From assembly GCA_014728215.1 (NCBI GenBank), contig WJLZ01000198.1:1-32402 (forward strand): a stretch of DNA of 32,402 nt, read 5' to 3'. Below, in pieces: positions 13,984 through 32,402 of the stretch. This DNA comes from Chitinivibrionales bacterium (GTDB taxonomy: Bacteria > Fibrobacterota > Chitinivibrionia > Chitinivibrionales > WJKA01). A program made the position numbers and the translations under genes. The notes beneath the pieces were generated by a model. That model was not told where the DNA came from and did not search any database. It worked only from the letters and a program-made list of their open reading frames with translations. Position 1 is the stretch's first letter. Every line of letters starts with the position of its first letter.

Positions 13984-15189
13984 TTATCCGCCGATATTGC
14001 CGATCATCTCGAACATCGGCATATACATGGCAAACAGAATTCCACCGATAACAACACCCATAACAACGATCATAAGAGGTTCGAGCATGGAAGTAAGGGC
14101 ATCGACAGCAGCATCAACCTCTTCCTGATAGAACTGGGAGACCTTGGTCAGCATCCCTGATAGGTCACCGGTTTTTTCGCCGACTGCTATCATATGAATA
14201 ACCATTGGCGGAAATATCCCGGTATCCTTGAGCGGTTCGGCGATAGTTAAACCTCCGGTAATTTTTTCCAGGGTTCTGAAAAGTCCTTTTTCTAAAACAG
14301 CATTGCCGGCTGTTTTTGCGGTAATTGAAAGGGCATCCAGAATGGTGACACCGCTCGAGAGGAGGGTTGAAAGGGTTTGTGAGAAACGGCTGACCGAGCC
14401 CTTGCGCTCGAGATTCCCAATTATGGGCAGATGAAGTTTGAGCCAGTCGATATTGTATTGTCCCTTTTCGGTTTTGTAATACATTGTAATTCCAACCACA
14501 GCTGCAATGATAAAAGCGAGTATGAAAATGATATTGGCACGGAGAAAATCCGACAGTGTCATTACTATTCGGGTCGGCAGGGGAAGTTCCCCCCCCATAT
14601 CGGCAAACATTTGTGCAAAGGTCGGCACCACAAAGGTAAGCATAATGGCAACGACCGCTATTGCAACAATCGAGAGAATAATCGGATAATTGAGGGCTCC
14701 CTGAATTTTCCGGCGAAGAGCATAGGCCTTTTCCTGGTATTCTGCCAGTCGGGTAAGGATTGCATCGAGGTTACCCGATGTTTCTCCTGCGGCTACCATG
14801 TTGCAGTAGAGCTGGTTGAAAATTTTCGGGTGTTTTGACAGGGAGTCGGCGAGGGTATTACCGCTTTGGATATCACCCGACACCTGCTGAATAGCTTTGG
14901 CAAGGATTTTATTTTCGGTTTGCTGCGCCAGGATATCAAGACATTGCACAAGGGGTAAACCGGCAGAGGCCATTGCGGCAAACTGGCGTGAAAACCGACT
15001 GAGTTCCTGAAGTTTGACGCCGCCTCCCATAATATCAATATTCAGATTGATAGGCTTTCCTTTAACAGAAAGCGGGCGTAGTTTTTTCTTTCGGAGAAGG
15101 CTTAAAACTTCATTCTTATTCCGGGCCTGTATTTCCCCCTTCACCTGTTTTCCGCCGGGGGTGACTCCTACATAAAGATAAGTAGGCAT
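13984..15189 (-). CDS. pilC: Type IV pilus inner-membrane platform protein PilC
   Basis: 401 residues, normal for PilC/GspF. The N-terminal part (MPTYLYVGVTPGGKQVKGEIQARN) is followed by two homologous GspF domains (about 70-190 and 270-395), each with the ...FSRQFAAMASAGLPLVQCLDIL or ...FSQTLSTLLSSGVTILDALSI pattern and a GETSG/GEKTG motif. Membrane segments are near 168-190 (ILSIVAIAVVAIMLTFVV), 220-240 and 370-392 (LMIVVMGVVIGGILFAMYM). The protein sits at the base of the pilus machine and couples the PilB and PilT motors to pilin assembly. It starts 28 bp after pilT and is the last gene of this run. A general secretion GspF role cannot be excluded by the protein alone, but the adjacent pilT favours a pilus. 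Confidence 0.93.
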   Translation of the reverse strand: MPTYLYVGVTPGGKQVKGEIQARNKNEVLSLLRKKKLRPLSVKGKPINLNIDIMGGGVKLQELSRFSRQFAAMASAGLPLVQCLDILAQQTENKILAKAIQQVSGDIQSGNTLADSLSKHPKIFNQLYCNMVAAGETSGNLDAILTRLAEYQEKAYALRRKIQGALNYPIILSIVAIAVVAIMLTFVVPTFAQMFADMGGELPLPTRIVMTLSDFLRANIIFILAFIIAAVVGITMYYKTEKGQYNIDWLKLHLPIIGNLERKGSVSRFSQTLSTLLSSGVTILDALSITAKTAGNAVLEKGLFRTLEKITGGLTIAEPLKDTGIFPPMVIHMIAVGEKTGDLSGMLTKVSQFYQEEVDAAVDALTSMLEPLMIVVMGVVIGGILFAMYMPMFEMIGNIGG

Positions 15190-15217
15190 AGCGATCTACT
15201 CTCCATTAATTTCATGA

Positions 15218-16270
15218 TTATCCAAGCATTTTTTGCAGTCCCTCAGGATCGGGGCTTTTTGCAAGCACATCCGACATGGTGACCAGCCGGCGTTTGTAGA
15301 GATTTGCCAGGGATGCGTTCATTGTCTGCATGCCGTGTTGCTGGCCGATTTCGATTATTCCCTGAAGTTGATGGATTTTATCATCGCGGATTAACTGCCG
15401 TACAGCGGTATTGGCAATCAGAATTTCACAAGCCATAATGCGTCCTCCGCCGACCCGGGGGAGCAACGACTGACATACAACGATTTCCAGCACCATCGAA
15501 AGCTGAGCCCGCACAATCGATTTCTGTGCGGGAGGGAAAACATCGACAATTCTATTAATTGTTTGAGCTGCCGAATTGGTATGAAGGGTTGCAAAGGTTA
15601 GATGACCGGTTTCGGCAATGCTCAGTGCTGCCTGGATTGTTTCCAGGTCGCGCATTTCACCAATGAGTACAAAATCAGGGTCCTGTCGAAGCGCCACTCT
15701 GAGCGCACTGGTAAAAGAGTCGGTGTCCTGACGCACTTCACGTTGATTAACAATGCATTTTTTGTGTGGATGAACAAATTCGATCGGATCCTCAACGGTC
15801 AGTATGTGCCCGTTCCGTTCGGTATTGATCTTATCAATCAACGCGGCAAGAGTGGTACTCTTACCACTTCCTGTTGGACCGGTAATGAGAATCAAGCCAT
15901 TAGGTTTTTCGGCAATTTTACTTAATATTGGTGGAAGGCCAAGGGTCTCGAGCGAATGTATACGAAAGGGAATTTGCCGGATAGCACAGGCGGTACAACC
16001 ACGTTGCTGAAACACATTGGCCCTGAACCGGCAAAGATTCTGGACACCGAAGGAAAAATCGACTTCCCGGTTCTGTTCGAAAAGTTTCCGCTGCTGTTCA
16101 TTCATGATACTGTAAGCCAGCTTGAGTACCTGGTCGGGAGTCAATTTTTCCACGCCTTTTGGAACAAGTTTCCCATCAACCCGATAGAGCGGAGGGGAGC
16201 CTGCAGTCAAATGAAGATCGGAGGCATTTAAATCGAGGACCTGAGAAAGCAATTCCTGTATTGATATCAT
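15218..16270 (-). CDS. pilT: Type IV pilus retraction ATPase PilT
   Basis: 350 residues, the usual size. The N-terminal PAS-like region (about 1-100) begins ISIQELLSQVLDLNASDLHLTAGSPP, the PilT hallmark. The ATPase core has Walker A GPTGSGKST (about 131-139), the Asp box around HILTVEDPIEFVH, Walker B LIGEMRDLET, and the His box GHLTFATLHTNSA near 225. The C-terminal region carries the AIR-like retraction segment near VRQLIRDDKIHQLQGIIE. It hydrolyses ATP to depolymerise the pilus, giving twitching motility, adhesion control or DNA uptake. It follows pilB by 133 bp and precedes pilC by 28 bp. Confidence 0.96.
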   Translation of the reverse strand: MISIQELLSQVLDLNASDLHLTAGSPPLYRVDGKLVPKGVEKLTPDQVLKLAYSIMNEQQRKLFEQNREVDFSFGVQNLCRFRANVFQQRGCTACAIRQIPFRIHSLETLGLPPILSKIAEKPNGLILITGPTGSGKSTTLAALIDKINTERNGHILTVEDPIEFVHPHKKCIVNQREVRQDTDSFTSALRVALRQDPDFVLIGEMRDLETIQAALSIAETGHLTFATLHTNSAAQTINRIVDVFPPAQKSIVRAQLSMVLEIVVCQSLLPRVGGGRIMACEILIANTAVRQLIRDDKIHQLQGIIEIGQQHGMQTMNASLANLYKRRLVTMSDVLAKSPDPEGLQKMLG

Positions 16271-16403
16271 ACTTATGAAATTAGTTGTTGAGATGTTGAA
16301 TATACAATTTTCTTTTTAAGAAATAATCCCGATTTTGATAATTTTTACACGCCAATGCTGAATCCCTGTAAAAACCTGATAATGACGCAGTTAAAGGTGC
16401 TTT

Positions 16404-18104
16404 TTAAATTTCAATAGCGCTCAGCATTTCTTCGACTGTTGTCTCGCCTTTAATGAGCTTTTCCATTGCGCAGTCTTTAAGGGTTTTCATACCATCTTTA
16501 AGTGCCTGATCTTTGAGTACGTTTGGCGGAGCCCGATCGATAATCAAATCCTGAAGACCCCGCGTTGCCGGCATTACTTCATACAGTCCACAGCGTCCCC
16601 TGAAACCGGTACCGTTACACAGAGGACAACCAGTTCCCTTGAACTGGGTTATTTTTTTCGCTTGGTCCATATCGATATGCAAGATCCGGGCAAGTTCTTC
16701 ATTGTTTGTCTCTACCGGCTCTTTGCAATCGGGGCAAATTTTGCGTACAAGGCGCTGGGCGATAACGATTCGCACCGATGAGGCCACCAGAAAGGGTTCA
16801 ACACCCATATCGATTAGCCGGGCTATTGTTGCAACCGAATTATTAGTATGGAGGGTACTGAAAACCAGGTGACCGGTAAGCGCCGACTTGATGGCTATTT
16901 CTGCGGTTTCTCCATCACGAATTTCACCGAGCATGATAATGTCCGGATCCTGACGGAGAAAGGATCGGAGGGCCGAGGCAAAACTTAAACCGATATCGCT
17001 GTTGACATTTACCTGATTGATACCATCGATATTGTATTCCACAGGATCTTCTACGGTCATGATATTGACATAGGGTTGGTTGAGCAGGCTCAGGGCGGAG
17101 TACAGCGTGGTCGTTTTTCCACTTCCGGTAGGGCCGGTAACCAGAAACATACCGAAGGGAGAATGAATCGCTTCCATAATATGTGTAAGGCTTGTTGATG
17201 GAATACCAAGTTTTTCCATATCGAGCACAAGATTGGATGCATCGAGAATACGCATCACCACTTTTTCGCCGTAAATAGTCGGTATTGTACTGACACGTAT
17301 ATCGACCGTATTAATGCCGATTTTAATTTTTATCCGTCCATCCTGCGGAAGCCGTCGCTCCGATATGTCCAGATCAGCCATAATCTTTATCCGTGAAATG
17401 ATTGCAGGCCGAAGTCGGTAGGGAAGGGATGAAATCGTCATGAGTCTGCCGTCGATCCGATACCGCATCCTGAACACTTTCTGATAGGTTTCAAGATGGA
17501 TGTCACTGGCATCCTTTTTAACAGCTTCGACAATAATATGGTTCACCAGTTTTACGACAGGCGCTTCGGAAATAGCAGCGCTGATATCATCGACTGCATC
17601 ATCGTCATCCTGTCCCTCTAAAACCTCAAATTCCTCTTCCTTGATATCGCTGAGAATTTCCTCAACATCGTCATCATCAGTGGCATAATTGAGCTTGATT
17701 GCCTCTTTTATTCCTTCAACGGGCGCCATGATCGGTTTGACATTACAGCCGGTCAGAAACTTGACCGCATCGAGAACAAAAAGGTTTTTAGGATCGGAAA
17801 TCGCTACGGTGAGTACTTTGTTTGTTTTATCGATTGCAATGATGCCGTATTTCTGAGCAATGTCCAAAGGGACAATCTCCACTACGGAAGAATCCAGCTC
17901 AATGTCTTTCAACTCGAGTTCCTGAGATTCGAACTGTTTTGCCAGAAAGGCACCTATTTCCTCGATACTCTGAATGATATCGGTGGCAATTAAGGCTTCG
18001 GTCAATTTACCGCCGTTTGAACTCTGATATTTAAGGGCCGTAAGAAGTTGTTCTTTTGTTAAAAAGTTCTTATCAACAAGGATCTGGCTGATTTTCTGTG
18101 CCAT
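16404..18104 (-). CDS. pilB: Type IV pilus assembly (extension) ATPase PilB
   Basis: 566 residues, normal for PilB. The N-terminal MshEN-type domain spans about residues 5-150, a family region known in some members to bind cyclic-di-GMP. The ATPase core has Walker A GPTGSGKTTT (near 326), the Asp box MTVEDPVEY, Walker B IIMLGEIRDGETAEIA and the His box GHLVFSTLHTNNS. Zinc-binding cysteines are CPDC (near 456) and CPLC...RC (near 494). It powers pilin polymerisation at the inner membrane. An acidic linker of about residues 140-175 (DDDDVEEIL, EGQDDDDAVDD) lies between the N-domain and the core. The gene upstream encodes an unknown membrane-anchored protein and pilT follows. Confidence 0.95.
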   Translation of the reverse strand: MAQKISQILVDKNFLTKEQLLTALKYQSSNGGKLTEALIATDIIQSIEEIGAFLAKQFESQELELKDIELDSSVVEIVPLDIAQKYGIIAIDKTNKVLTVAISDPKNLFVLDAVKFLTGCNVKPIMAPVEGIKEAIKLNYATDDDDVEEILSDIKEEEFEVLEGQDDDDAVDDISAAISEAPVVKLVNHIIVEAVKKDASDIHLETYQKVFRMRYRIDGRLMTISSLPYRLRPAIISRIKIMADLDISERRLPQDGRIKIKIGINTVDIRVSTIPTIYGEKVVMRILDASNLVLDMEKLGIPSTSLTHIMEAIHSPFGMFLVTGPTGSGKTTTLYSALSLLNQPYVNIMTVEDPVEYNIDGINQVNVNSDIGLSFASALRSFLRQDPDIIMLGEIRDGETAEIAIKSALTGHLVFSTLHTNNSVATIARLIDMGVEPFLVASSVRIVIAQRLVRKICPDCKEPVETNNEELARILHIDMDQAKKITQFKGTGCPLCNGTGFRGRCGLYEVMPATRGLQDLIIDRAPPNVLKDQALKDGMKTLKDCAMEKLIKGETTVEEMLSAIEI

Positions 18105-19076: not shown

Positions 19077-20195
19077 TTACAGCTCATTTGTTTTAAATGT
19101 CAATCTCGTTTCCCAATGAACAGACTCATCGGGGGAAACGGAAAACTTAACAAAGGGTTCCGGACAGACAGCGGTTTTTTCGGCATAAAAATTGTACTTC
19201 GAAGGCGGCTTGGTACCCTCGACCGTGATCGATGCACCGGAGAGCCGGTTCGTTACAATGCACTGATTTTCTTCGGGAACATGGGCAAGATCTTCAAATT
19301 CGGCCCAGAGAGCTTTACCGCCCAGATTGCCTGTTATATTCAGAACAGAATCGGATATCACCGCGTAACCTTCCATTTTTCTTTGAATTTTCTCACTTAC
19401 TTTCAGGACAAATGGAAACCTGCATCTGTACATGGAATCGACAGGATATTCATCAATGGTGATGAAATTGTGGCTGTAGTGTTCGGTGGTGATCTTCCGG
19501 TTGCCGATATTATGGAGCGTATGCGAAATTGTGACTGCCGGGGTATCCTGAGAAAGATATATCTGCTTGATATAAGAATATCCCCATCCTGATGCCATGG
19601 TCAGGTCCTGTTTAAATTCGATCCACTTGTTTCCTTCACACCTGATCTGCCACAGTCCCTGCTCGGCAACCGGGTAGGAGGTGTTCATGAAATATTTGTT
19701 TGTGGTTTTTATCAATTTGCCGACGCCGATTTTAACAAAGGTATCACCTGAATCTACGGCGGAAAAAAGCGGAGGGGTTTCCATATCGAACTCTTCTGCA
19801 GGTCCGATTCCGTGCCCCGGATCTGAAGGGTCGTGCGGGGTCTTCCATTCGGAGAAAAATGAATGACCGTTGTATTCGACCTTTGCGATCATTCCCGACC
19901 AGTCGAATCGTGTCCCCCGGTAATAGCCGCACCGGGAATTGGGGGTATAAATCGTCACACGAAGCATTCCGTTTTCAAGAATAATCCGGGGCGGGTCCAT
20001 TGAATCGCAAAATGCTATATTTGTTAAACGGCTGTTGCATTGTGATGGTGGGGTATGTCCCGTCGCGTTTTCAGAATCAGACATCTCCGCACGGTCCTGA
20101 GTGCGCGTTTTTTCGCATGTCGCATTGATCGATGTCAGACTGAGTGCAATAAGAAAGTAACCAAAAACACGTTTTTTACCCATAAAATACGCCAT
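19077..20195 (-). CDS. Exported galactose-mutarotase-like (aldose epimerase fold) protein
   Basis: 372 residues. The start at 20195 is supported by GGAGG five bases upstream; a second Met is four codons later. An N-terminal hydrophobic segment (about 11-25, FGYFLIALSLTSINA) suggests export, with a cysteine just after it; a lipobox is weak. The mature part resembles the galactose mutarotase-like beta-sandwich: ILENGMLRVTIYTPNSRCGYYRGTRFDWSGMIAKVEYNGHSFF, then HGIGPAEEF, later EHYSHNFITID. Such folds bind sugars and include aldose 1-epimerases and carbohydrate-binding enzymes; the substrate is unknown. It heads the minus-strand run that continues into pilB-pilT-pilC with a 30-bp gap to the next gene, although it may be only a neighbour. 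Confidence 0.75.
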   Translation of the reverse strand: MAYFMGKKRVFGYFLIALSLTSINATCEKTRTQDRAEMSDSENATGHTPPSQCNSRLTNIAFCDSMDPPRIILENGMLRVTIYTPNSRCGYYRGTRFDWSGMIAKVEYNGHSFFSEWKTPHDPSDPGHGIGPAEEFDMETPPLFSAVDSGDTFVKIGVGKLIKTTNKYFMNTSYPVAEQGLWQIRCEGNKWIEFKQDLTMASGWGYSYIKQIYLSQDTPAVTISHTLHNIGNRKITTEHYSHNFITIDEYPVDSMYRCRFPFVLKVSEKIQRKMEGYAVISDSVLNITGNLGGKALWAEFEDLAHVPEENQCIVTNRLSGASITVEGTKPPSKYNFYAEKTAVCPEPFVKFSVSPDESVHWETRLTFKTNEL

Positions 20196-20417: not shown

Positions 20418-22535
20418 ATGTATCCCCAAAAATTGCGAAACAGTATTATTCTCATATTTTTTGCCGCAATAAGTGCATGGCCTCGCATATCTATAGCACT
20501 ATTCCCTTTGAATGATAAAAGTGGTAATCAGATGAATGAATGGGTCAGCTATGCTGTTCCTGATCTTCTTTTCAGGTCTTTAAGCATGCTGGAGGGGGTG
20601 CAGGTGTGGGATCCGATATTCCTTTTCAATGCTGATTCGGTGGGCTGGGAGATGGAATCGGATTCTCTTTTACAATTACACCGGCAGCAATGGGAATGGA
20701 ATATCGTTGCTGGTGGACGGTATCGGGTTAGTGGTGATACCGTTGCGCTGGAATTCCTTTTTATCGATGATGGAGAGGAAAGATGGGATAAAAAAAAGAT
20801 TACCGTGAGGGGTAATATCAGAACATTTTCTTATCTTTGCGATAAAATACTTAAAAGGTTTGTAGAGGATATTGGGCTTCCGGCATCAGAAAACGCTGCA
20901 TCCTATCTGAAAGATTCTCATGCAAGCCGTAATTATCAGGCCTATGCAACCTATGCAGCAGGATACGGATTCGAACTCACAGGGGAGTACCCTGCTGCTC
21001 TATCGGCCTATTACCGGGCAATCGATATAGATCCATCCTTCTCAATAGCCCGTTATCGCGCAGCGCGCATACATCTTCTTGCCGATAATCACGTAAAAGC
21101 GCTCGAGCTGCTCCAAAATTCAGGATTTACATCATCATTCGATCCCCTTGCCAAGGCATGGGCTGCCGAATTTTATATCGACAATGAAACACCTGAAAAA
21201 GCACTTGGATTTACCGATAAAAACCGGAGTGTTCTTGAGAAAACCGCGTGTGGACTGAAAGCTCTGGGCAAAGCCCATCTTCTTGAAGGGGCCTATGACC
21301 GGGCGGAAGCAATGCTTACCAGGGCTTCAGCCTTCGGCCCGTCGGACCTGGAAACCGAGTTTTTACTGGCCACGGTTTTTCTTTCTACCGGACGGTTTAC
21401 CAGGGCTTCAGAGATTTTCAACCATCTGATCGAACTCCAGCCCCGCAATATGAAATATTATTCCCATCTCGGTGGGGCATTTCGCCGGGCGGGCAAACTG
21501 ATGGAGTCGGTTCAGGTTCTCGAGAATGCACTCAATATCGAACCGGATAATCCATCAATTCTGATCAGTCTTGCCCAAACCTATTCTCATCTGGAATGGT
21601 ATGAAAAAGCGGAGCAACTGCTTTTGCATGCCCTTGAGATAAATCCTGATCTTGATGTTATCCATTTAAATCTCGGGGTACTCTATTGGCATCTCGGCAA
21701 AAAGGAGAAGGCCGAAAAAATATTTACCCAGTCGACAAAATCCGTAAAAAACACACAGCTGGCGCTTAATAACCGCGGAAATATCCATTTTCTCAAAGGT
21801 GAAATCAAAAAGGCAATCAAATGTTACCGTAAAGCGGATAAGGCCGGTAAAAAAAGTGATATTATCCTGTCGAATATGGCATCCGCCTATTTGGCGGTAG
21901 GGAACAAAAAGGATGCGTTTGCGTGCCTTGAAGAACTGATCCGCTTGTCTCCCGTCAATATCGACGCCCTCGATCAACTTGCCCGTATTGCCGAAGAACA
22001 GGAAAAATATAAAAAAGCCGAGGAGTATTATCTCGAAATTCTGCAAGCGATGCCTCATTCCGAAGATGCAGTGACCGGTCTTGTGGGTATTTACAGAAAA
22101 CAGGAAAGGTATGATGATGCTGTTGCTGTTGTTGAATCCTACCTTAATCGGTATCCCGGAGACAAGCGTCTGCGGCTGCTTCTTGCAGATATCTATTCCC
22201 AACGGGGATGGTATGAAGTTGCTGTGGCAAAATATGAGGAGATGATACGGGATTTTCCCGACGATCCCCAAATCAAGTTACGGTTCGGTAAGAGCATATA
22301 CGATGGTATTACTTATCGGGAAAACAGCAACCATGACCGGGCTGTTTACGTCCTAAAAAGCGCCGCCGCCGGCCTGCCCGGTAATCCTGAACCGGATTAT
22401 CTGATCGGTATGATATACATGGACAAAAAGTACAAAGCTCTCGCTGTGGAACACTGGAACAACGCACTAAGCAAAGCAACCGACAGGCGGCTCATTGCCA
22501 GGATACAGGATTTGATAGCAAAGGCGCAGCGATGA
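20418..22535 (+). CDS. Exported TPR protein with TolB/CsgG-like N-terminal domain
   Basis: 705 residues. A signal-like segment (about 8-24, SIILIFFAAISAWPRIS) precedes a domain at about 25-165 beginning IALFPLNDKSGNQMNEWVSYAVPDLLFRSLSML. This resembles the beta-alpha domain found before TPRs in TolB-N/FlgO/CsgG-like proteins. Residues about 172-640 are roughly a dozen tetratricopeptide repeats, for example YAAGYGFELTGEYPAALSAYYRAIDIDP and LNLGVLYWHLGKKEKAEKIF. TPRs form protein-binding superhelices. The gene opens a three-gene operon: its TGA overlaps the next ATG (ATGA). No Shine-Dalgarno was seen at the ATG. It is probably periplasmic, binding partners encoded in the operon; its function is unknown. 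Confidence 0.8.
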   Translation: MYPQKLRNSIILIFFAAISAWPRISIALFPLNDKSGNQMNEWVSYAVPDLLFRSLSMLEGVQVWDPIFLFNADSVGWEMESDSLLQLHRQQWEWNIVAGGRYRVSGDTVALEFLFIDDGEERWDKKKITVRGNIRTFSYLCDKILKRFVEDIGLPASENAASYLKDSHASRNYQAYATYAAGYGFELTGEYPAALSAYYRAIDIDPSFSIARYRAARIHLLADNHVKALELLQNSGFTSSFDPLAKAWAAEFYIDNETPEKALGFTDKNRSVLEKTACGLKALGKAHLLEGAYDRAEAMLTRASAFGPSDLETEFLLATVFLSTGRFTRASEIFNHLIELQPRNMKYYSHLGGAFRRAGKLMESVQVLENALNIEPDNPSILISLAQTYSHLEWYEKAEQLLLHALEINPDLDVIHLNLGVLYWHLGKKEKAEKIFTQSTKSVKNTQLALNNRGNIHFLKGEIKKAIKCYRKADKAGKKSDIILSNMASAYLAVGNKKDAFACLEELIRLSPVNIDALDQLARIAEEQEKYKKAEEYYLEILQAMPHSEDAVTGLVGIYRKQERYDDAVAVVESYLNRYPGDKRLRLLLADIYSQRGWYEVAVAKYEEMIRDFPDDPQIKLRFGKSIYDGITYRENSNHDRAVYVLKSAAAGLPGNPEPDYLIGMIYMDKKYKALAVEHWNNALSKATDRRLIARIQDLIAKAQR

Positions 22536-25500
22536 ACAATAGCCGGTTTTTAATTTCTTCACTGTTTTATCGTGGGACACTTCTGGTGCTCCTTTGCAGC
22601 GCATTTTTGTTTGGCCGGCCCGACACAGTACCCACCTGGCTGGATACAATTCCTCCGGAAATAACGATATCGCCAAAAGAAAAATATCACCGCACGATTT
22701 TTCATGTATCGCTGGAAGCCGATGAGGTCGCTACCATTTTCATGGGCATTAATACCCGCAAAAAAATGAAGGTATACCGCCGTCCGGTGACAATTACCGA
22801 TGATGGGAAAGTGACTATTTACTTTCGTGGAGAAGACGATTTTGGAAATGCCTCGGAACTGGATTCCATGATATATGTGCTGGACCGCCGTTTGCCGCAG
22901 CTGAAATTTCAGCCGGAGCCGGGGCAGTATCGAAAAGAGATTGTAATCCATCTTTATTCCGATGAACCGGTGCAGTATTTTTTCCACCGTTCCGAAGACG
23001 ACATGCCGGGGAAAAAAATTCCCGATTCACTTGTCGTCTCTCGGAGTCTGAAGGGCTTTTTCAGTGTACTGGACAGTGCCGGAAACCGGACGTTCAGTGA
23101 TATGGTACACTATACTGTCGACACAACGAAAATTGAGGTTTCAGCTTCGCCTCCCGAAGGCTTATATAGTCAATTACAGGAAATCAACCTTTCTTCGACC
23201 CCCACGGCGGAGATCTACTATTCCTTCGATCCGTCCGCTCCAGCCGACTGGTTTGACAAATACGATAAACCGGTAAAGCTTCCCTACGGACTGACCGTCC
23301 TCAGATACTTTGCACGCACAAAAAGCGGTGTGAAATCCGGGATCTATCACTCAAAATATGTCGTGGATACAATCGCCCCTTCGGTCAGGTTCGATTACCG
23401 TCAGGGACCATCGATAGACACCGTGGTTTTAAGTAGCCGTGAAAAGGCAAACATCTGGTATACCCTTGAGGGCACGGTGCCCACCGAAGAGAGCATTCCC
23501 TACACAGGCCCGATTACGGTTAAGAAAGTAGACCGGAGCACCATCCGGGCCAGAGCAAAAGACAAGGCAGGGAATCTGTCGCAACCCTTTGAGTGGGAGC
23601 GCAAGTATGATAAAGCTCCTCCTGTTGTTACTCTGTCACATCCGGAAGGCCTGTATACCAAAAAGCTTTCGGTTCAGATCAGCGCTAATGAACCGGCGAA
23701 TATTTACTATACGCTGGATGGTATGGAGCCGACAACGAAGTCCTTTTTATATCGGGAGCCTCTTTCGATTACAAAGGAAGGAACGACTGTTCTCAGGTGT
23801 CGTGCAGTCGACAGAGCGGGAAACAGATCGGAGGAGGTTACTGCTACCTATACGATCGATACCAAACCGCCTCTTGTCAAAGCGCGGATCGAACAGAATG
23901 TACAAGAGAATATCTATACGGTAACGCTCTATTCCAACGAACCGGTACGGATTCATTATGAAACAGGTTCTGTAACGCCGGGGATGTCGTCGCCGGTGTA
24001 TCGGGAGAAACTTACCATGCGCAGCGGACAGGTGCTTCGATATTTTGCCCTGGACAGTGCCGGGAACCGGAGTAAGGTCCGGGTGATGAAAGACCTGATT
24101 CGTCCGATCGTCTCCGCCTCACCGGGGGGAGGTATATTCAACAGGCAGGTCCGTATCGGTTTTATAACCAACATGAGTTCTACCATTAAATGGCGCCTGC
24201 TTCCCGATACCACTTTCCGCGCCTTCCGGGATTCCATAGAGCTTTCGCGCCAGGGGACACACTCGATAGAATATTATTCAGTTACCGCCGACGGTATGCG
24301 GAGTCCCTTTCACCGAAACGAGTATGTTCTCGACTGGACATCTCCCCAAGTCAACGTGACGCTACGCAGGGGGATCGGTGATTCGGTGTCGGTATTTTTC
24401 GAATGCAGTGAGAATGCAACAATATATTACACAACCGATGGTTCGAGTCCTCTTTTCAGCGGCACGGTCAAAATGGCCGCCAATAAATTTCTTTCATCCC
24501 GTGACCGGATCAGTGTGATGCGTGACAAAGAGATCCGGCTGACTTTTTATGCCGAAGACATTGCCGGTAACCAGAGTGCATTGTCGATATATGATCTTTC
24601 GAAACCCCGGGTAACTCCAAATGTTCCCTCAGGGCCCGAGAGGGTCTATAACCGGTTTCTTTCGGTATCGCTGAATACACTCGACGACCGTTCTCAAATC
24701 TATTACAGCCGTCACGGCAACAGGCCGACTCTCGACTCAACACTCTATACCGCGCCGATCACCCTTCTCCATTCCGATACAATTGTAGCATTCGTTATGG
24801 ATGCATCCGGATTCAAGGGAGATCTCGATACGTTCATTTATCATATCGATCTACCTCCTTCTGCCCGGTTTACTACTTCTCCGGACACCATATATGCCGG
24901 CGCTCCTATGATGTTTAATGCCCTTTCGACGACGGATCCCGAAGCTGCTCCTGAAGAACTGCTGTTCCGGTGGGATTACAATGGAGACGGTGTTTTTGAT
25001 ACTGATTTCGATGCCGGACCGAAAAATGAGTTTGTCTTTGATCGGGGCGGCCTCTATCCGGTCCAGCTTGAGGTTAAGGATCCTTCAGGCCGTACCGGAG
25101 AAATCGTTCGAAAGATCCGGGTTCATGAATTATGTCCTCAGGGAATGCGGTATGTTATCGACAAAAATGGTCGCAGCTTCTGTATCGATAGGTATGAATG
25201 GCCGAATATCCGGAAGAAGGTTCCACAGACCGGCTTTACATGGATAGAGGCAAAAATGGAGTGTATCAATGCAGGAAAGCGGCTCTGCACTGCCCAAGAA
25301 TGGGAGAGTGCATGCCGGGGAGCAAGCGTAACTGCCTATCCCTATGGTTCTTCCCATGAAGAGAAGCGATGCCCCGACAAGGGGAGGAGGCTTTTCAAAT
25401 CAGGGTCTTTTAATCGATGTGGTGAAGGGTATGGGCTTTCGGACATGGTTGGTAATGCCTGGGAATGGGTCGATTCCAGACGGGGCGATTATCCTCTTAT

Positions 25501-25606
25501 GGTGGGCGGGTCGATTACGGACGGAAAGGATGCCCATTGCGGCGCCGTATCACCGGGAACAGTAACCACACGTTCGGCTCATATCGGATTCAGGTGTTGC
25601 AGATGA
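22532..25606 (+). CDS. Surface-type protein: nine Ig-like (chitobiase C-terminal-like) repeats, PKD domain, SUMF1-like domain
   Basis: 1024 residues. An N-terminal hydrophobic segment (about 9-25, FYRGTLLVLLCSAFLFG) is a likely signal peptide. About nine repeats of roughly 80 residues follow (starting near 39, 118, 198, 279, 360, 444, 523, 603 and 690). Each has PxVxxSPxxG..., a central IYYTxDGxxP and a final FRAxDxAGNxS, the pattern of chitobiase/beta-hexosaminidase C-terminal-like modules (CHB_HEX_C). Residues about 773-866 are a PKD domain (FDALSTTDPE..., RWDYNGDGVFDTDFD). Residues about 868-1024 resemble a sulfatase-modifying-factor (SUMF1/FGE) domain: SFCIDRYEWPN, RLCTAQEWESACRG, GLSDMVGNAWEW, HIGFRCC. 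The paired active-site cysteines of true formylglycine enzymes are not evident, so a binding rather than enzymatic role is likely. It overlaps its neighbours by ATGA at both ends. Confidence 0.85.
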   Translation: MNNSRFLISSLFYRGTLLVLLCSAFLFGRPDTVPTWLDTIPPEITISPKEKYHRTIFHVSLEADEVATIFMGINTRKKMKVYRRPVTITDDGKVTIYFRGEDDFGNASELDSMIYVLDRRLPQLKFQPEPGQYRKEIVIHLYSDEPVQYFFHRSEDDMPGKKIPDSLVVSRSLKGFFSVLDSAGNRTFSDMVHYTVDTTKIEVSASPPEGLYSQLQEINLSSTPTAEIYYSFDPSAPADWFDKYDKPVKLPYGLTVLRYFARTKSGVKSGIYHSKYVVDTIAPSVRFDYRQGPSIDTVVLSSREKANIWYTLEGTVPTEESIPYTGPITVKKVDRSTIRARAKDKAGNLSQPFEWERKYDKAPPVVTLSHPEGLYTKKLSVQISANEPANIYYTLDGMEPTTKSFLYREPLSITKEGTTVLRCRAVDRAGNRSEEVTATYTIDTKPPLVKARIEQNVQENIYTVTLYSNEPVRIHYETGSVTPGMSSPVYREKLTMRSGQVLRYFALDSAGNRSKVRVMKDLIRPIVSASPGGGIFNRQVRIGFITNMSSTIKWRLLPDTTFRAFRDSIELSRQGTHSIEYYSVTADGMRSPFHRNEYVLDWTSPQVNVTLRRGIGDSVSVFFECSENATIYYTTDGSSPLFSGTVKMAANKFLSSRDRISVMRDKEIRLTFYAEDIAGNQSALSIYDLSKPRVTPNVPSGPERVYNRFLSVSLNTLDDRSQIYYSRHGNRPTLDSTLYTAPITLLHSDTIVAFVMDASGFKGDLDTFIYHIDLPPSARFTTSPDTIYAGAPMMFNALSTTDPEAAPEELLFRWDYNGDGVFDTDFDAGPKNEFVFDRGGLYPVQLEVKDPSGRTGEIVRKIRVHELCPQGMRYVIDKNGRSFCIDRYEWPNIRKKVPQTGFTWIEAKMECINAGKRLCTAQEWESACRGASVTAYPYGSSHEEKRCPDKGRRLFKSGSFNRCGEGYGLSDMVGNAWEWVDSRRGDYPLMVGGSITDGKDAHCGAVSPGTVTTRSAHIGFRCCR

Positions 25607-28600
25607 AGCGAGCAGCGGCAATCGTCATACTCTTTATTTCCTTTGGTCTTTGGGCAGATCAGAGCATGGCGCTCGAGTGGCTTCTTGAAGACGTTCATTC
25701 CGAGGAGTATATACGACTTCCCGTCTCATCGGTAACCCGGCCTGAAAATGTTCGCCGTGCCATGGAGCATTACCATGCCGGTGAATACCGGAAAGCAGCG
25801 CGGATTCTGGAAAGTGCTTTTAAGCTGGGGCTTCCCGATGGAGACATCGATTTTATCGGTTTTGCCCTTGCTGAAAGCTATCGTCAACTTGGCCTTGAGA
25901 ACCTGGCCCGGGACAAATACCTTTTTCTGGTCGAGAAGACACCGGAGAGTGATAAGGTGGCGCCGTCTTATTTCCGGTTGATTCAGTATGCTTATGAAGA
26001 CAGGGACCTTGAGACCGCCGAATCGATTCTGAAGATATACGAAGAAAGGTTTTTGCGCCACCCCTTGTACCAGCCGGTTGTATATTCGCTGGCAAAGCTT
26101 TACTACAGAAAAAAGGAGTACGGGGCCGCCGCCGGATTGCTCGAAAAAATCACACAACAATCAGCGTACCATTCCCAGTCTCGTTTTTTGATGGCTCTCT
26201 GTGAAATAGAATTGAAAAATCCTGATAAAGCACTTCTTCAGCTCGATTATGTCAGAAAAAATTCAACAGATGAAGATCTTACCGCCGAAGCATCCATCCT
26301 TATCGGAGATTTGTATTACCTTCAGGATAACCCTTCTACTGCGCAGGAATATTACCGTCAGGTTCCAAAAAGCGCTTCGCGGTACGATTATGCACTGGTA
26401 AAAATAGCCCGCACCTATTATGACCTGGGAACGTATGATGAAGCCCGGGATTATGCCCGTGATTTCATACGAAAGAATCCCAACAGCAAATATTTTTTTG
26501 AAATGATCAGCCTTCTCGAACAGGCTTATCTGGAGACCGGCGATACAGTTAAAGCACATTCCATAAACGATCTGGTTTACAAAAAAATTGTCAATGCCCG
26601 TCTTTCATTTGAGATATACGACGAATTGACCTCACTCGCGGAAGCTGTTGCCGATTGGAAGCAGATTGAATTCATCGGTCTCCGCAGAAAGGATAAGGCA
26701 CTCGAAAAGACCGTCCGGGAAAATATCGAAAAGCTCGAGAATCTGAAAAAGGAACATCTGGCATTACTTGTCAAGATGGGGGAGCGGAGTTCTGATGACA
26801 AAACCGGTGAATCGTTCAACCTTGCTGTGCGTCAATATCTCTCTATCCTGAAAGAGCAGATTGTCGATAGGGAAGACAAGCTTATCGATCTCAGAGGGAA
26901 AATTGAAATAGACACGATCGAATTGAAATCATCGCCCGGGGATACGGTTCTGAGAAATGAGATCGTTTTGCTGAAATCCCGTCTGGACAGCACAGAAAAG
27001 GCCATGCGGCAGCTCGAACACGAGTATGCGATCGTGGTTGAACAAGCCAGGCGTGCCGATAAAAGGATGAGCCGTCGCGATCATGAAGGACCGGCTAAAT
27101 ACGTGGACTGGTCCTTTATCAAATATCAGAAAAAGAAAAACCATCTCTCCGAAGTCAGTGCGCAGATGTATGCGACAGATACAATTCCACCCTCCACCGA
27201 CTCCTTATCAGATAAGGGACAGAAAGTCGCACGGCAATTTTCCGAGATCGATTATGAGAGGCTACAGAAGGAGTTGGCCGGAGAAAGAGACCTTTTGATT
27301 AATCACATTAAGGCTATGCAGGAATTCTATCCAAATAATAAATACTCGGCCCGGATATTATTTCGGCTGGCGGAACTTTATTTCGATGGAGCAAGTGATG
27401 ATTTCGGGAGGCGGCTTGCCGAGTATGAAAGGAAAATGGAAGAGGGCGAAGATACCGCCGGACTCGAGTTTCCCGATTATGACCTCAGCGAGGTTTTGAG
27501 GATTTATGACAAGATTATTTATGAATTTCCAAAAGATGAAAGTGCCGATGACGCCTATTTCTATAAAGCATTGGCGCTCCAGAAACTCGGACTCTATGGT
27601 GAAGCCAACGATATACTTGTACAGCTGACTGAAAAGTATCCCGAAAGTGAATATTTTGTCGAAGCAAATATGAATGTCGGACGATACTATTTCGAACATC
27701 CGAAAATAGAAAACAACAAAGGATATGATCTTGCCGAAGAGGCGTTCAGAACAGTTCTTCAATACCGCGACCATCCCCAGTTTATACAGGCGTTGTATAA
27801 TCTCGGATGGTGTTATTATATGCAGGATCATTACGAAGATGCGATTGCTGTGTTCAAATACCTTATCGAAGAAGTTGAATTGGATTTCGATCCCGAGAAG
27901 ATGGATGAGAAACAGGTGGTGAATCCATTGTTGAGAGGAGAAGCGATTGACTATATCGCTATCAGCTTCGATGAGGAAAAGCAGATCGATGATGCTGTTA
28001 AGTTTCTCGAGTTGATCGGAAATATCGATTATGCCGCCCTGGTTCTCCAGAGAATCGGTGAACTACGATCGGAGGTTCAGGATTATGATGTGGCGATACG
28101 GGTCTATCGGCGGCTCCTGGAGGAATATCCCCACAGCATTGCGGCGCCGGATGCCGGGAGCGCTCTCATTACCATCTACGACGGCACCAATCGGAGTGAG
28201 GAAGCGCTCGAAGAGCGGAAACGATTTTTCAAGAATTATGCCCGTGGTTCCGAATGGCATACCACCGTTGGGGAGCGGGACAGCACAGCGGTTATGCGTG
28301 TTGATTCATCTGCGATTGCAAAGGGGCTGTATGTTGCAGATTCCTATGTCCGGGACGCCGAAAGGGAGGTGAGCTTAAAGGATTATACTTCTGCAGCCGA
28401 ATACTACGACCGCGTTGCGAGTGCATACCCGAATCATCCACGGGCTGTTGAGGGGTTGTGGAATCTGGCCGTTATCTACGAAGACAAACTCGGCAAGCCC
28501 AAAGATGCCTATACCTGCTATTTACACTACAGCAAGCGGGAAAATGCGAATAAGGCACGGCGGCACCAGGCCGCATTGAACGCTATTGCCCTGGCGCAAA

Positions 28601-31422
28601 AGATGCAACCTCCGGATTCGGCAGTCGCAACCGGTGACCTCGAACCGTCAACCGTGGTTATGCTTGAAGCAATCACCAATTACCTCGAGAATTTTCCGGA
28701 CGGCAATGCTACCAGTGATGTTATGATTTCAATGGCTGCTGTTTATTTCAATCGGGACATGTATTCGAATGCGGCAAAAATATATAACGATATCCTGAAA
28801 AAGGGGAGAGGCGACAAGAATTATTTCAGGGCGATGCTGCTTTTGGGGCAATGTCATTTTGGCGAAGAAAAATGGCAGCGGGCTTCCACTGCCTTTAAAG
28901 AGGTATGGCGGAAATCGCCGGATCCCGAAATGAAAGAAAAAGCCTACAACCTGCTGCTTCAATCGGAATTTCTCGCCGCGAAACAGTATCAGAGTTCCGG
29001 GGATCATCGCAAAGCTGCAGAGGCGTTTATCGAAATCGAGGGCAGCTTTCCAGGAAGTCAATACAGTGGTGTTGTGTTGTTCAATGCTGCTGAAGCCTAT
29101 GAAAAGCTCGAGGAATGGGATGAATCGGGGAAGGCCTATTTCCGCCTTGTGGATAAGTATCCGCAGTCGGAACTTGCGCCCGGCGCGCTTTTTAATGCAG
29201 CGTCGAATTACGAAAAAGTCGACAAATTCGATAAGGCGGCCGAAGCCTATGAAAAGCTGGTCGATAATTATCCCGATTCGGATAAAGCCAAAGATGCACT
29301 CTTTAATGTCGGTTTCTGCTACGAAAAAATGGGCAAACTCGACAAGATGGCGGAAGTCAACGAGCGGTATACAACGCTATATCCGGATGAAAAGGACGCC
29401 GGCGCCATGCTGATCCGGTCGGCAAACTTTTATTATAAAACAAAGATGTATGCCAAAGCCAAACAGGTTTACAAAAATTATGTCCGCCGTTTTGGTAATA
29501 CTCCGCAGTCGGTCGAGGCTCTCTTTATGATTGGAGAGATTCATATGGTGACTGATGACCGGAAAAATGCGGTGATGTTTTACGATCAGGCCGAAAAACA
29601 GAACCTCCGGTTTGCTGAAGCCGGTAAGGAAACAAACAATTACTTTGCCTCCGAAGCCGCATTTGCTACGGCAGAAATCAAACGCAAAGAATTCGCTGAA
29701 GTCAAATTCGATGCCACAGGGGAAAAATTGAAAAAGCTTCAGGAACAAAAATCCTCACTGCTGGCCCAGGCGAGTAAATCGTATACCAGAGTAATAAAAT
29801 ACAAAAGCAAGCGGATGTTCGAAGCTGCCTATCAAATTGGTCAAATGTATGAAAACTTTGGCCGCGACTGGTTCGGACAGAAACGTGAAAAACTCGACCC
29901 CATTAAAACGGCGGTCTTTGAAAAAGACCTCTATCTGGTGACTTCAGGGCTTATCGAGCGCTCATTTAAACCCTATGAAAAATTAATAGAAATAGGGCAG
30001 GGGTTTGATTCTTTGTCGCAGGAAGATAAAAAATGGATTGAAAATGCCAAAACGAAAATCTGCAAAAATCATATTCGTACCGGGGATATGATTGTCAATT
30101 CGGTGGGGGCAATGTATAAGGCTCCTATCCCTGATGAAATCAAGAAAAAGCCGCTCCATTATTTTCAGTATCTGAAACAGTTGAACGAAACGCTGAAACC
30201 AATAAAGATAAAAGCCCGCGACTATTTTCTTAACGCATACCATCATCTTAATGAGCTTGAAATATGTCCTCAGAGTGCTCAGCGGTGTTTAGAACGGTTT
30301 GGACAACTCAATTACATGATCGGCAGTGAGTATGAAAAACTTGCTCAGAAAATTGTCAAGGAAGAGTATGAGACGCCTGGGGGACTCGATGAAGTGGAGA
30401 GGGAAGAATTATTGTTTCAACTGGAAGATATCGTTTTTGAACTACAGGATAATGCGATTTTCGCTTACGAAGACGCTATGAACTGGGCTCAGTCCAACAC
30501 AGCCGATTCGGGGCCCTGGTATTCTAAAATCATGGAGGGTCTTGCCCGGTTGAGTCCGGATATGTATGGTGCTGATTTTTATGAAACCAGGGTAATACCA
30601 TCAAACCGAAGCTGGGTAGTGAGGACGGATGAAGCGGGGAGCTGGTACGGTGATTCCCCACCGCTTGAGGGATGGAAAGCCGCAGCAGTTCAGAAAGAAT
30701 ACAGCGTTCCACCGTTCCCTTCAGGTAATCCCGAGGCGATATGGTCGCCGGATTCACAGGCAAAACGGGTATTTATCCGTAAGGATATTTTTCTTGACGG
30801 CAAGCCGAGGGACGCGGTCTGCTATTTTTCGGTAGCCGGTAAGTACAAACTCTATCTCAATGGACAAGTTGCAATTCAGGATACACTGGGAGAAAAAACA
30901 GATTCTCAAATCGATAGTCTGGGAAATATTTCGAGGCTTTTACGAGGCGGCGATAATGTTGCCGCTCTGGAGGTTGAGTGGACACAAGATCGTCGTCCCG
31001 GCGTGGCGTTGTGTTTGAAAACCATGCTTGATACTACCACAAAATTTACTTCTTCGGCCCCCCGGATAAACGTGGCGTCAATGGGGATTAAACCGGATTC
31101 TTCGGCCGACGGAGCACTCGGCAGCATCGATTCTGCATTGTCGGAACCACCGGAAAGCACACCCGATTCAACGGCTGTTGTCAAAAAAGGGATCAGTGAA
31201 AACTGGTATGTCCAGGAATACAAAAGCAGGGGAGAACTGCTCAATGCTATCGAAGATTATCAAAAGCGCTCCCAGGATACGCAGCAGGCAATTCGTAAAG
31301 AACGGCTCGAGTTACGAAAACTTCAGGTAAAAGAAGAATTTCTCGATGCCAAAATCGAGACAATGAAAAAAGAGATCGAAGAATTAAATCGTTCGATCTC
31401 TGAAATGAAACGGGGCAAATAG
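25603..31422 (+). CDS. Giant exported TPR protein with jelly-roll-like domain and C-terminal coiled coil
   Basis: 1939 residues from the ATG at 25603, which overlaps the preceding TGA (ATGA). The frame is open 138 bases further upstream inside the previous gene, but the signal peptide MKRAAAIVILFISFGLWADQ begins here. Residues about 45-360 hold TPRs, about 364-490 a charged coiled-coil region, and about 564-1382 a second long TPR array. This array includes near-identical units (FNAAEAYEKLEEWDESGKAY, FNAASNYEKVDKFDKAAEAY) with a YPxSxxA step like the TolA-binding/YbgF repeats. Residues about 1679-1815 resemble a galactose-binding jelly roll (RVFIRKDIFLDGKPRDAVCYFSV, YKLYLNGQVAIQD). A linker and a coiled coil at about 1885-1939 finish it. 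The TPR style resembles large TPR proteins of myxobacterial gliding clusters, by eye only. It is likely a periplasmic or surface scaffold. Confidence 0.85.
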   Translation: MKRAAAIVILFISFGLWADQSMALEWLLEDVHSEEYIRLPVSSVTRPENVRRAMEHYHAGEYRKAARILESAFKLGLPDGDIDFIGFALAESYRQLGLENLARDKYLFLVEKTPESDKVAPSYFRLIQYAYEDRDLETAESILKIYEERFLRHPLYQPVVYSLAKLYYRKKEYGAAAGLLEKITQQSAYHSQSRFLMALCEIELKNPDKALLQLDYVRKNSTDEDLTAEASILIGDLYYLQDNPSTAQEYYRQVPKSASRYDYALVKIARTYYDLGTYDEARDYARDFIRKNPNSKYFFEMISLLEQAYLETGDTVKAHSINDLVYKKIVNARLSFEIYDELTSLAEAVADWKQIEFIGLRRKDKALEKTVRENIEKLENLKKEHLALLVKMGERSSDDKTGESFNLAVRQYLSILKEQIVDREDKLIDLRGKIEIDTIELKSSPGDTVLRNEIVLLKSRLDSTEKAMRQLEHEYAIVVEQARRADKRMSRRDHEGPAKYVDWSFIKYQKKKNHLSEVSAQMYATDTIPPSTDSLSDKGQKVARQFSEIDYERLQKELAGERDLLINHIKAMQEFYPNNKYSARILFRLAELYFDGASDDFGRRLAEYERKMEEGEDTAGLEFPDYDLSEVLRIYDKIIYEFPKDESADDAYFYKALALQKLGLYGEANDILVQLTEKYPESEYFVEANMNVGRYYFEHPKIENNKGYDLAEEAFRTVLQYRDHPQFIQALYNLGWCYYMQDHYEDAIAVFKYLIEEVELDFDPEKMDEKQVVNPLLRGEAIDYIAISFDEEKQIDDAVKFLELIGNIDYAALVLQRIGELRSEVQDYDVAIRVYRRLLEEYPHSIAAPDAGSALITIYDGTNRSEEALEERKRFFKNYARGSEWHTTVGERDSTAVMRVDSSAIAKGLYVADSYVRDAEREVSLKDYTSAAEYYDRVASAYPNHPRAVEGLWNLAVIYEDKLGKPKDAYTCYLHYSKRENANKARRHQAALNAIALAQKMQPPDSAVATGDLEPSTVVMLEAITNYLENFPDGNATSDVMISMAAVYFNRDMYSNAAKIYNDILKKGRGDKNYFRAMLLLGQCHFGEEKWQRASTAFKEVWRKSPDPEMKEKAYNLLLQSEFLAAKQYQSSGDHRKAAEAFIEIEGSFPGSQYSGVVLFNAAEAYEKLEEWDESGKAYFRLVDKYPQSELAPGALFNAASNYEKVDKFDKAAEAYEKLVDNYPDSDKAKDALFNVGFCYEKMGKLDKMAEVNERYTTLYPDEKDAGAMLIRSANFYYKTKMYAKAKQVYKNYVRRFGNTPQSVEALFMIGEIHMVTDDRKNAVMFYDQAEKQNLRFAEAGKETNNYFASEAAFATAEIKRKEFAEVKFDATGEKLKKLQEQKSSLLAQASKSYTRVIKYKSKRMFEAAYQIGQMYENFGRDWFGQKREKLDPIKTAVFEKDLYLVTSGLIERSFKPYEKLIEIGQGFDSLSQEDKKWIENAKTKICKNHIRTGDMIVNSVGAMYKAPIPDEIKKKPLHYFQYLKQLNETLKPIKIKARDYFLNAYHHLNELEICPQSAQRCLERFGQLNYMIGSEYEKLAQKIVKEEYETPGGLDEVEREELLFQLEDIVFELQDNAIFAYEDAMNWAQSNTADSGPWYSKIMEGLARLSPDMYGADFYETRVIPSNRSWVVRTDEAGSWYGDSPPLEGWKAAAVQKEYSVPPFPSGNPEAIWSPDSQAKRVFIRKDIFLDGKPRDAVCYFSVAGKYKLYLNGQVAIQDTLGEKTDSQIDSLGNISRLLRGGDNVAALEVEWTQDRRPGVALCLKTMLDTTTKFTSSAPRINVASMGIKPDSSADGALGSIDSALSEPPESTPDSTAVVKKGISENWYVQEYKSRGELLNAIEDYQKRSQDTQQAIRKERLELRKLQVKEEFLDAKIETMKKEIEELNRSISEMKRGK

Positions 31423-31426
31423 AATC

Positions 31427-31454
31427 GCCGAGTTATCTGATAACCGGCATTTTT
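31427..31454 (+). terminator. Rho-independent terminator ending the TPR operon
   Basis: GCCG and GTTA (31427-31435, with a bulged A) pair with TAAC and CGGC (31441-31448) around a TCTGA loop, followed by ATTTTT (31449-31454). It begins five bases after the operon's stop codon. It also contains the stop codon and last codons of the converging gene. Confidence 0.75.
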
Positions 31455-32402
31455 CCCTGAACTACTTTTTTACCGGTTTTCCACCGGTAAATGATTATCT
31501 TTCCTGCGAGTAGAGAAGGCGCCTGAAAAATGCTGTTCTTGCGAAGCGCGTGATGAGCGATCACTTTGCCGCTTGGTGTGAACAGTGACAGCGTGCCGTT
31601 TTGGGGTATAGTAAAAAAGGAGCCCCTGCCTGTCGACAGTGCCCGAAATTTGAATATGCGATTGAACGCAATTCCATTGGTCACCGGAGTTTCGATTCCC
31701 TGAAGGATGCTGAAAACAATATCGCCTTCAGGTTCTCCTACAGGGTTATATCTGTATTGAAACTGTTCATTGATAGAGAGATCGTAGACGCCGTTTTCGG
31801 GTTCACGGCTTGATGAGTTGCCCCAGGGAATAGCGCCTTCGTATATGCCCGGTGAGGATTCAACAAGGGTGACAACTTCTTTCTCCTGGGAAGGACCAAG
31901 CAGGGTTATGAATACCGTATCGGTCTGGGTTGTTTTATCGTCGTCATATACCCTGATATGCAAGGTGTCGCTTGCCTTACTGAAATTAGTGAGTTTTACC
32001 TGGTCCTCTCCGGCGGTCTGTGATGCGTCGAGTATCTCGATAAAGAGCGAATCGGATCTTTTCCTGTAATTCTCCAGTGATGATGAATCGGTGTAGGAAC
32101 TGCTGTTGTTGAAATAAATCTCGGCTTCCTTGACTTCAAGGACAACTGATCCGGAGTAAGGATCCTGGTCTTCCTCGCCGATTCCCAAAAAGGAGAATGA
32201 GATTTCATCGTCGATACCAACATCGAACTTATCGTTACCGGGTATGCGGGCGGATGGGTCCCCGTATTCGATTGAACCGATATATGTGCCGGTACCGGAT
32301 TCGATAAGCGTGACGGTTTCGGTTTCTCCGTTGGGGCCGTTCAATTCGATTTCTGTGGTATCGACCCCCTTGGTCCTGGAGTCGTCGTACACCTGGATAT
32401 AA
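31433..32402 (-). CDS. C-terminal part of a secreted repeat protein (5' end outside window)
   Basis: At least 320 residues; the frame runs open to the window edge, so the true start is outside it and the apparent GTG at 32392 is internal. Two similar blocks of about 120-130 residues are visible. Each has a YDD segment (VYDDSRTKG; RVYDDDKTTQTD), a TVTLxESxxGxYxGxIxxGxxxxRxPxN segment and a strand-rich end. These look like beta-sandwich adhesion-type modules, but I do not name a family. The last about 70 residues (GTLSLFTPSGKVIAHHALRKN, LLAGKIIIYRWKTGKKVVQGKM) resemble C-terminal sorting-type tails of secreted FCB proteins (the pattern L.l....G..i.......l..g.y......g.....k), which hints at type IX-like or similar secretion. 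That is inference. Confidence 0.7.
   Translation of the reverse strand, partial: YIQVYDDSRTKGVDTTEIELNGPNGETETVTLIESGTGTYIGSIEYGDPSARIPGNDKFDVGIDDEISFSFLGIGEEDQDPYSGSVVLEVKEAEIYFNNSSSYTDSSSLENYRKRSDSLFIEILDASQTAGEDQVKLTNFSKASDTLHIRVYDDDKTTQTDTVFITLLGPSQEKEVVTLVESSPGIYEGAIPWGNSSSREPENGVYDLSINEQFQYRYNPVGEPEGDIVFSILQGIETPVTNGIAFNRIFKFRALSTGRGSFFTIPQNGTLSLFTPSGKVIAHHALRKNSIFQAPSLLAGKIIIYRWKTGKKVVQGKMPVIR

Follow-up and report, generated by a model that had tools for sequence, protein, structure and literature searches.

The question raised by this locus is whether three long adjacent genes, here termed A, B and C, form a system of their own or belong to a larger machine. The window, which is the whole 32,402-nt stretch of DNA analysed, is contig G000:C198 of a 5.0-Mb draft genome of Fibrobacterota (order Chitinivibrionales). 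On its plus strand, gene A (20418-22535) encodes an exported TPR protein of 705 aa, gene B (22532-25606) an exported protein of 1024 aa with Ig-like repeats, PKD and FGE-fold domains, and gene C (25603-31422) a giant exported TPR scaffold of 1939 aa that resembles the GltD-like machine family. An earlier sequence-only reading had described three long exported proteins of these lengths, which is borne out by the open reading frames and by the signal-like N-termini: each protein has one signal-like hydrophobic stretch at its N-terminus and zero further membrane segments, and no lipobox Cys is conserved in A, B or C. The ATGA overlaps proposed for both junctions can be read directly in the sequence, covering 4 nt at the A stop/B start (22532-22535) and 4 nt at the B/C junction if C starts at 25603. 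The C start of most orthologues lies 9 nt further upstream (MLQ[MIV]) and gives a 13-nt overlap with B; this earlier start is also available in the window at 25594, and the resulting overlap (25594-25606, plus strand) reads ATGCTGCAGATGA. On the other hand, the claimed TATAAT promoter and downstream terminator did not hold up. Promoter-like sites in the region numbered 14 vs 19.6 expected in shuffles, and terminator candidates 20 vs 14.1 expected (sd 4.5), so that these consensus matches, being no more frequent than by chance, were rejected as operon signals. The best hairpin downstream of C (31469-31491) lies inside the convergent gene at 31433-32401.

Several other features surround the operon. 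The contig starts with the 3' end of a 23S rRNA gene and a 5S rRNA gene (1-523). Upstream of the operon, the type IV pilus genes pilC, pilT and pilB occupy the minus strand at 13984-18104; PilB/T/C were considered as partners of A-B-C and rejected because they lie near it in only a few genomes. An exported protein without Pfam match is encoded at 19077-20195, divergent from A, and its homologue is found beside A in G002 too.

The conservation of the operon was examined in 121 Fibrobacterota genomes, 23 of which carry A-B-C and 98 do not. Besides Chitinivibrionales, full-length B orthologues (33-67% identical) were detected in two genomes from a different class, of which one (G004) is named Ca. 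Raymondbacteria. Every full-length B orthologue in Chitinivibrionales is preceded by A and followed by C wherever the contig reaches that far. Only B-C is present in the Raymondbacteria-class genomes, and A is thus not universal. Since the order A-B-C is kept in Chitinivibrionales, without scattering of the genes, and B-C in Ca. Raymondbacteria, this is a genuine conserved operon as had been proposed, with homology and synteny far beyond chance. No conserved neighbours were found beyond A-B-C, the other flanking genes varying among genomes. Literature searches on gliding in Chitinivibrio, on Raymondbacteria and on Glt in Fibrobacter turned up no description of the operon; outside Fibrobacterota, a contig scan with only two peptide patterns provides weak evidence of absence. 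The idea of an undescribed three-gene system stands as far as the operon is real, but the operon is not free-standing, because C belongs to a known scaffold class and a motor locus lies elsewhere.

Protein A begins with an alpha/beta domain (20475-20897, plus strand; AlphaFold pLDDT 81.5) of TolB-N/CsgG/LpoB/GNA1162-like fold, followed by a TPR array (Pfam), which agrees with the TolB/CsgG-like domain and TPRs first suggested for it. Foldseek searches against the PDB gave GNA1162 and CadC as best matches, with PelC, LpoB and TolB at weaker E-values. Each of 18 Chitinivibrionales genomes has this conserved non-TPR domain once, and A scored 58.5 bits against the GltE model, below the cut-off of 225. 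In protein B, an array of Ig-like repeats (CHB_HEX_C/Fn3_assoc; 22619-24841) is followed by a PKD domain (24854-25099) and a C-terminal FGE/SUMF1-fold domain (25109-25603), all on the plus strand. Pfam matches support both the PKD and the SUMF1-like ends that had been noticed, and the FGE domain is also supported by alignment; of the nine repeats originally counted, six are independently significant in Pfam and about nine are suggested only by motif spacing. The FGE domain contains 10 near-invariant Cys. The catalytic Cys pair, which we take to lie in the GGS..C....C stretch, is absent as a pair from all 14 orthologues aligned, and C1003 aligns with a later Cys. FGE enzyme activity was rejected as a predicted function of B because the pair is missing. 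A second large PKD/FGE protein, bearing a FecR domain, adjoins lnt (apolipoprotein N-acyltransferase) in the same genome (G000:C44, L052 4484-7294).

Protein C consists of TPRs, a helical region, a jelly roll and a C-terminal coiled coil, and Pfam, AlphaFold and Foldseek concur with the earlier view of a giant TPR scaffold carrying a jelly-roll-like domain. The jelly roll (30583-31032, plus strand), also found in the TPR-b paralogue, resembles GH2/rhamnosidase sugar-binding domains, and the coiled coil (31228-31419, plus strand) is an AlphaFold helix. Profile comparison aligned residues 203-1009 of C with TPR-a (E 2e-41) and residues 1018-1815 with TPR-b (E 3e-64) of the paralogue locus G000:C92, and residues 585-1659 with the TPR protein of G000:C185 (E 1e-52). 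As a control for the TPR background, C vs A gave E 3e-19. The matches to TPR-a and TPR-b take in the non-TPR helical and jelly-roll parts, the latter with a probability of 97.8%. The TPR/ExbB locus at C63 was rejected as a relative of C, since its E-value of 5e-20 is comparable to the control and both its ExbD proteins keep the Asp. Because C aligns end to end with TPR-a plus TPR-b, it is a fusion of the two-gene pair; in G007 it comes as two parts, of which the second has a signal peptide of its own. The scaffold genes of both C92 and C185 run on into TolQ-TolR-TolR-TonB-like genes, and the TonB-like proteins carry an AgmX/PglI C-terminal domain above the curated cut-off. Luciano et al. (PMC3169522) described this gene order for the Agl-Glt/Nfs core and noted homologues in one Fibrobacteres genome. 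On the strength of these alignments, C is assigned to the giant TPR scaffolds already known from machines of the TolQR/GltG type; its likeness to GltD is drawn through TPR scaffolds beside AgmX/TolQR genes and not through M. xanthus GltD itself. At C92 (L051 3580-18151), the Glt-like TolQR genes are followed by genes for glycosyltransferases and for polysaccharide export of the Wza/Wzc type, a layout reminiscent of Nfs-Exo.

The corresponding motor genes of A-B-C were located through the Raymondbacteria class. In G004, B, C, F11 (a small exported protein), TolQ, TolQR, TolR, a GltG-like protein, PilZ, a FliL-like protein and SecA follow one another on one strand, while a contig of G007 runs from the last part of C through F11, TolQ, TolQR, TolR, GltG-like and FliL-like to SecA. 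C is thus contiguous with the motor in two genomes of this class, which belong to different families, with PilZ, above its Pfam cut-off, seen in the G004 run, one of the two. In Chitinivibrionales, the motor block precedes FliL-secA at a locus unlinked to A-B-C, and in the host genome it occupies about 15.0-19.6 kb of G000:C200 (F11, TolQ, TolQ-TolR fusion, TolR, GltG-like, PilZ). FliL was rejected as a part of the system, as it is not specific, lying upstream of secA in genomes without A-B-C too. The secA of G002 (L127 2112-6854) is interrupted in frame near residue 396 by ~530 additional aa, which show DUF3106/TerB-like matches and no intein domain.

The block contains two tandem TolQ, the second fused to a TolR domain, and hence two TolR, one separate and one fused. 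These correspond to features of the Agl-Glt/Nfs core (group B of Luciano 2011), namely an AglR-like TolQ/ExbB and two TolR/ExbD subunits (AglQ and AglS counterparts); the grouping into one cluster is retained in Ca. Raymondbacteria and split in Chitinivibrionales. The GltG-like protein scored 74.9 bits against the AgmX/PglI domain NF033768 (cut-off 40) and 85 vs a cut-off of 650 against the GltG equivalog model, so that the AgmX/PglI domain is present and the exact GltG family is not. Among the genes of the locus, none was recognised as GltC, GltE or a Glt outer-membrane barrel. In the membrane motif of the separate TolR, KLNITSM[MI]DMFT, the Asp is invariant; in the fused TolR domain its place is taken by Asn, or by Gly in Raymondbacteria. 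A comparable asymmetry, with one Asp and one Asn or Cys, is common to both Glt-like paralogue motors (C92 and C185) and is absent from the ordinary ExbD pair at C63. In the TolQ tree, the two copies each fall on their own side of one branch (support 97), so that the tandem pair is older than the split of the two classes.

The distribution of the motor matches that of the operon. A genome-wide search found the TolQR fusion in 21/23 genomes with A-B-C vs 0/98 without it (Fisher p 1.5e-21). At the secA locus, the motor block is present in all 15 A-B-C genomes with enough sequence, G004 and G007 included, and absent from 13/13 genomes that lack A-B-C and have >4 kb of upstream sequence; four further such genomes show no block in 1.7-2.1 kb upstream of secA. 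One of the 15, G026, has an internally deleted copy: its motor block is without TolQR, TolR and GltG, and its B lies in two frames (L068 1367-4425, L159), either through joint decay or through an assembly error. In G042, where A-B-C is divergent, the 3 kb upstream of secA contain no motor block; in G065, A-B-C is present and the motor was not found. Both genomes are ~82-83% complete. The motor of G067 is on another contig, and the 2 kb upstream of its secA are without the block. On the secA tree, the distribution of A-B-C requires at least five changes and offers only three well-supported independent contrasts, none opposite, so that a sign test cannot reach 0.05 and the phylogeny-aware test, taken by itself, falls short of significance. 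Given these few independent events, contiguity with the motor is stronger evidence than co-occurrence. On this genomic evidence, the motor locus upstream of secA is considered part of the same system as A-B-C.

We assign a probability of about 0.72 to the reading in which A-B-C is the periplasmic/outer-envelope module of a split proton-driven trans-envelope machine of the Agl-Glt/Nfs class, with its motor encoded at the second locus, and we conclude from the comparative data that A-B-C and this motor probably constitute a third such machine, undescribed in the literature searched. The TolR asymmetry shared with the Glt-like paralogue motors suggests a proton-driven motor of that class. Proton flow through TolQ/TolR would move or reshape the GltG-like rod, which would interact with the giant scaffold C and pass force to it, possibly by way of A and F11. 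Onward transmission to surface material might then fall to C, which has a jelly roll of sugar-binding type, and to B, whose Ig-repeat rod ends in a docking FGE fold. Judging by the jelly roll, the Ig rod and the example of Nfs, the most likely cargo would be surface polysaccharide or adhesin complexes serving surface attachment or gliding, and the PilZ protein suggests that the machine may be under c-di-GMP control. Precedents are available for the force path, in the interaction of AglR with GltG in Myxococcus, and for a motor whose genes are remote from those of its partner, in the AglRQS motor shared by Myxococcus Glt and Nfs (PMC3169522, PMC3858216). A bolder version, which we regard as possible yet doubtful, holds that the locus beside secA encodes an undescribed c-di-GMP-responsive asymmetric motor, with one TolR bearing the ion-binding Asp and one Asn-substituted TolR fused to the second TolQ, and that a dedicated A-B-C arm serves a function outside the known Glt/Nfs machines, e.g., moving glycan-bound adhesin complexes over the surface during polysaccharide attachment.

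Other explanations deserve consideration. The TolQ/TolR-like motor, the N-terminal domain of A with its resemblance to TolB-N/LpoB/CsgG folds, and the score of C against the YbgF profile (tol_pal_ybgF; 170.3, above the cut-off of 90.1) could instead indicate envelope maintenance of the Tol-Pal type, in which a CpoB/YbgF-like C would take part in outer-membrane constriction or lipid/lipoprotein handling and not in surface movement. However, the TonB-like protein bears an AgmX/PglI domain and not TolA, the TolB propeller and Pal are absent from both loci, Raymondbacteria are without A, and so patchy a distribution is unlike that of an essential division system; this explanation is unlikely. A passive, non-energised surface scaffold or adhesin complex that binds polysaccharide, its link to TolQR being a coincidence of shared ancestry, would account for the Ig, PKD and FGE domains and the GH2-type jelly roll, and a role as cellulolytic scaffolds has been suggested for giant TPR proteins of F. 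succinogenes (PMC6851124). The small number of independent phylogenetic contrasts also leaves room for it, but two genomes from different families have the motor directly contiguous, and the presence and absence of the block at the secA locus track A-B-C, which makes a passive scaffold the least probable of the readings considered.

It is also very improbable that A-B-C serves the type IX secretion system (T9SS) as an accessory module, in which the FGE fold of B would play the part of GldK/PorK/GldJ and C that of a TPR adaptor of the PorW/SprE type. The FGE fold is a docking hub in PorK/GldK/GldJ (PMC12421860), and SprA occurs in 121/121 of the Fibrobacterota sampled, the host included (its SprA/Sov relative, the T9SS translocon, lies at G000:C150 32050-35691). 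Nevertheless, A-B-C is present in only 23/121 and lies on different contigs from sprA, beside which many genomes encode separate FGE proteins of 380-510 aa. Moreover, the linked motor is TolQR/GltG and not GldL/GldM, and the weak PorW/SprE profile match of C, which would speak for such a module, is TPR-driven and far below the cut-off (62.7 vs 250). T9SS membership was therefore rejected on distribution and linkage.

Comparison with known systems places the split Agl-Glt/Nfs-class machine proposed here among several relatives. It shares TolQ/TolR relatives, a TolB-N-like domain and YbgF-type TPRs with Tol-Pal, whereas no TolA, TolB propeller or Pal was found in A-B-C or the motor loci. Like PorK/GldK/GldJ, which function in a trans-envelope machine, B is an exported protein with an FGE fold lacking the catalytic Cys pair; unlike them, it is a 1024-aa Ig-repeat protein and not a conserved lipoprotein, and its link is to TolQR/GltG and not PorL/M. 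Within the phylum, it resembles the TolQ-TolR-TolR-TonB/TPR loci (C185, C92 and F. succinogenes FSU_2397-2403), which have a homologous scaffold and motor and the same TolR asymmetry, although in C185/C92-type loci the motor is adjacent, the scaffold is single or split in two, there is no FGE/Ig protein and, at C92, Wza/Wzc-type polysaccharide genes are also present. The similar F. succinogenes cluster was reported to be more abundant on cellulose (PMC6851124).

As in Agl-Glt/Nfs, a TolQ, two TolR and a TonB-like GltG with AgmX/PglI C-terminus accompany a giant exported TPR scaffold (C, the putative GltD counterpart), and the motor is unlinked to some of the parts that it would drive. The differences are that the scaffold is here a 1939-aa fusion with a jelly roll, co-operonic with the Ig/PKD/FGE and TolB-N/TPR proteins, that the second TolQ is fused to a TolR domain, that PilZ is linked, and that GltC, GltE and the Glt barrels are lacking among the genes identified. 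To our knowledge, the proton-driven surface transport machines of the Agl-Glt/Nfs class, among them the one behind Myxococcus gliding, have been studied almost only in that genus. The present comparison may provide a parts list for a new machine type with a residue-level test point (the TolR Asp), and it suggests that one machine can be divided over two loci while the joined state is kept in a sister class. The Agl-Glt/Nfs class would thereby gain another type, of distinct architecture, in Fibrobacterota, a phylum that includes uncultivated bacteria and polysaccharide degraders.
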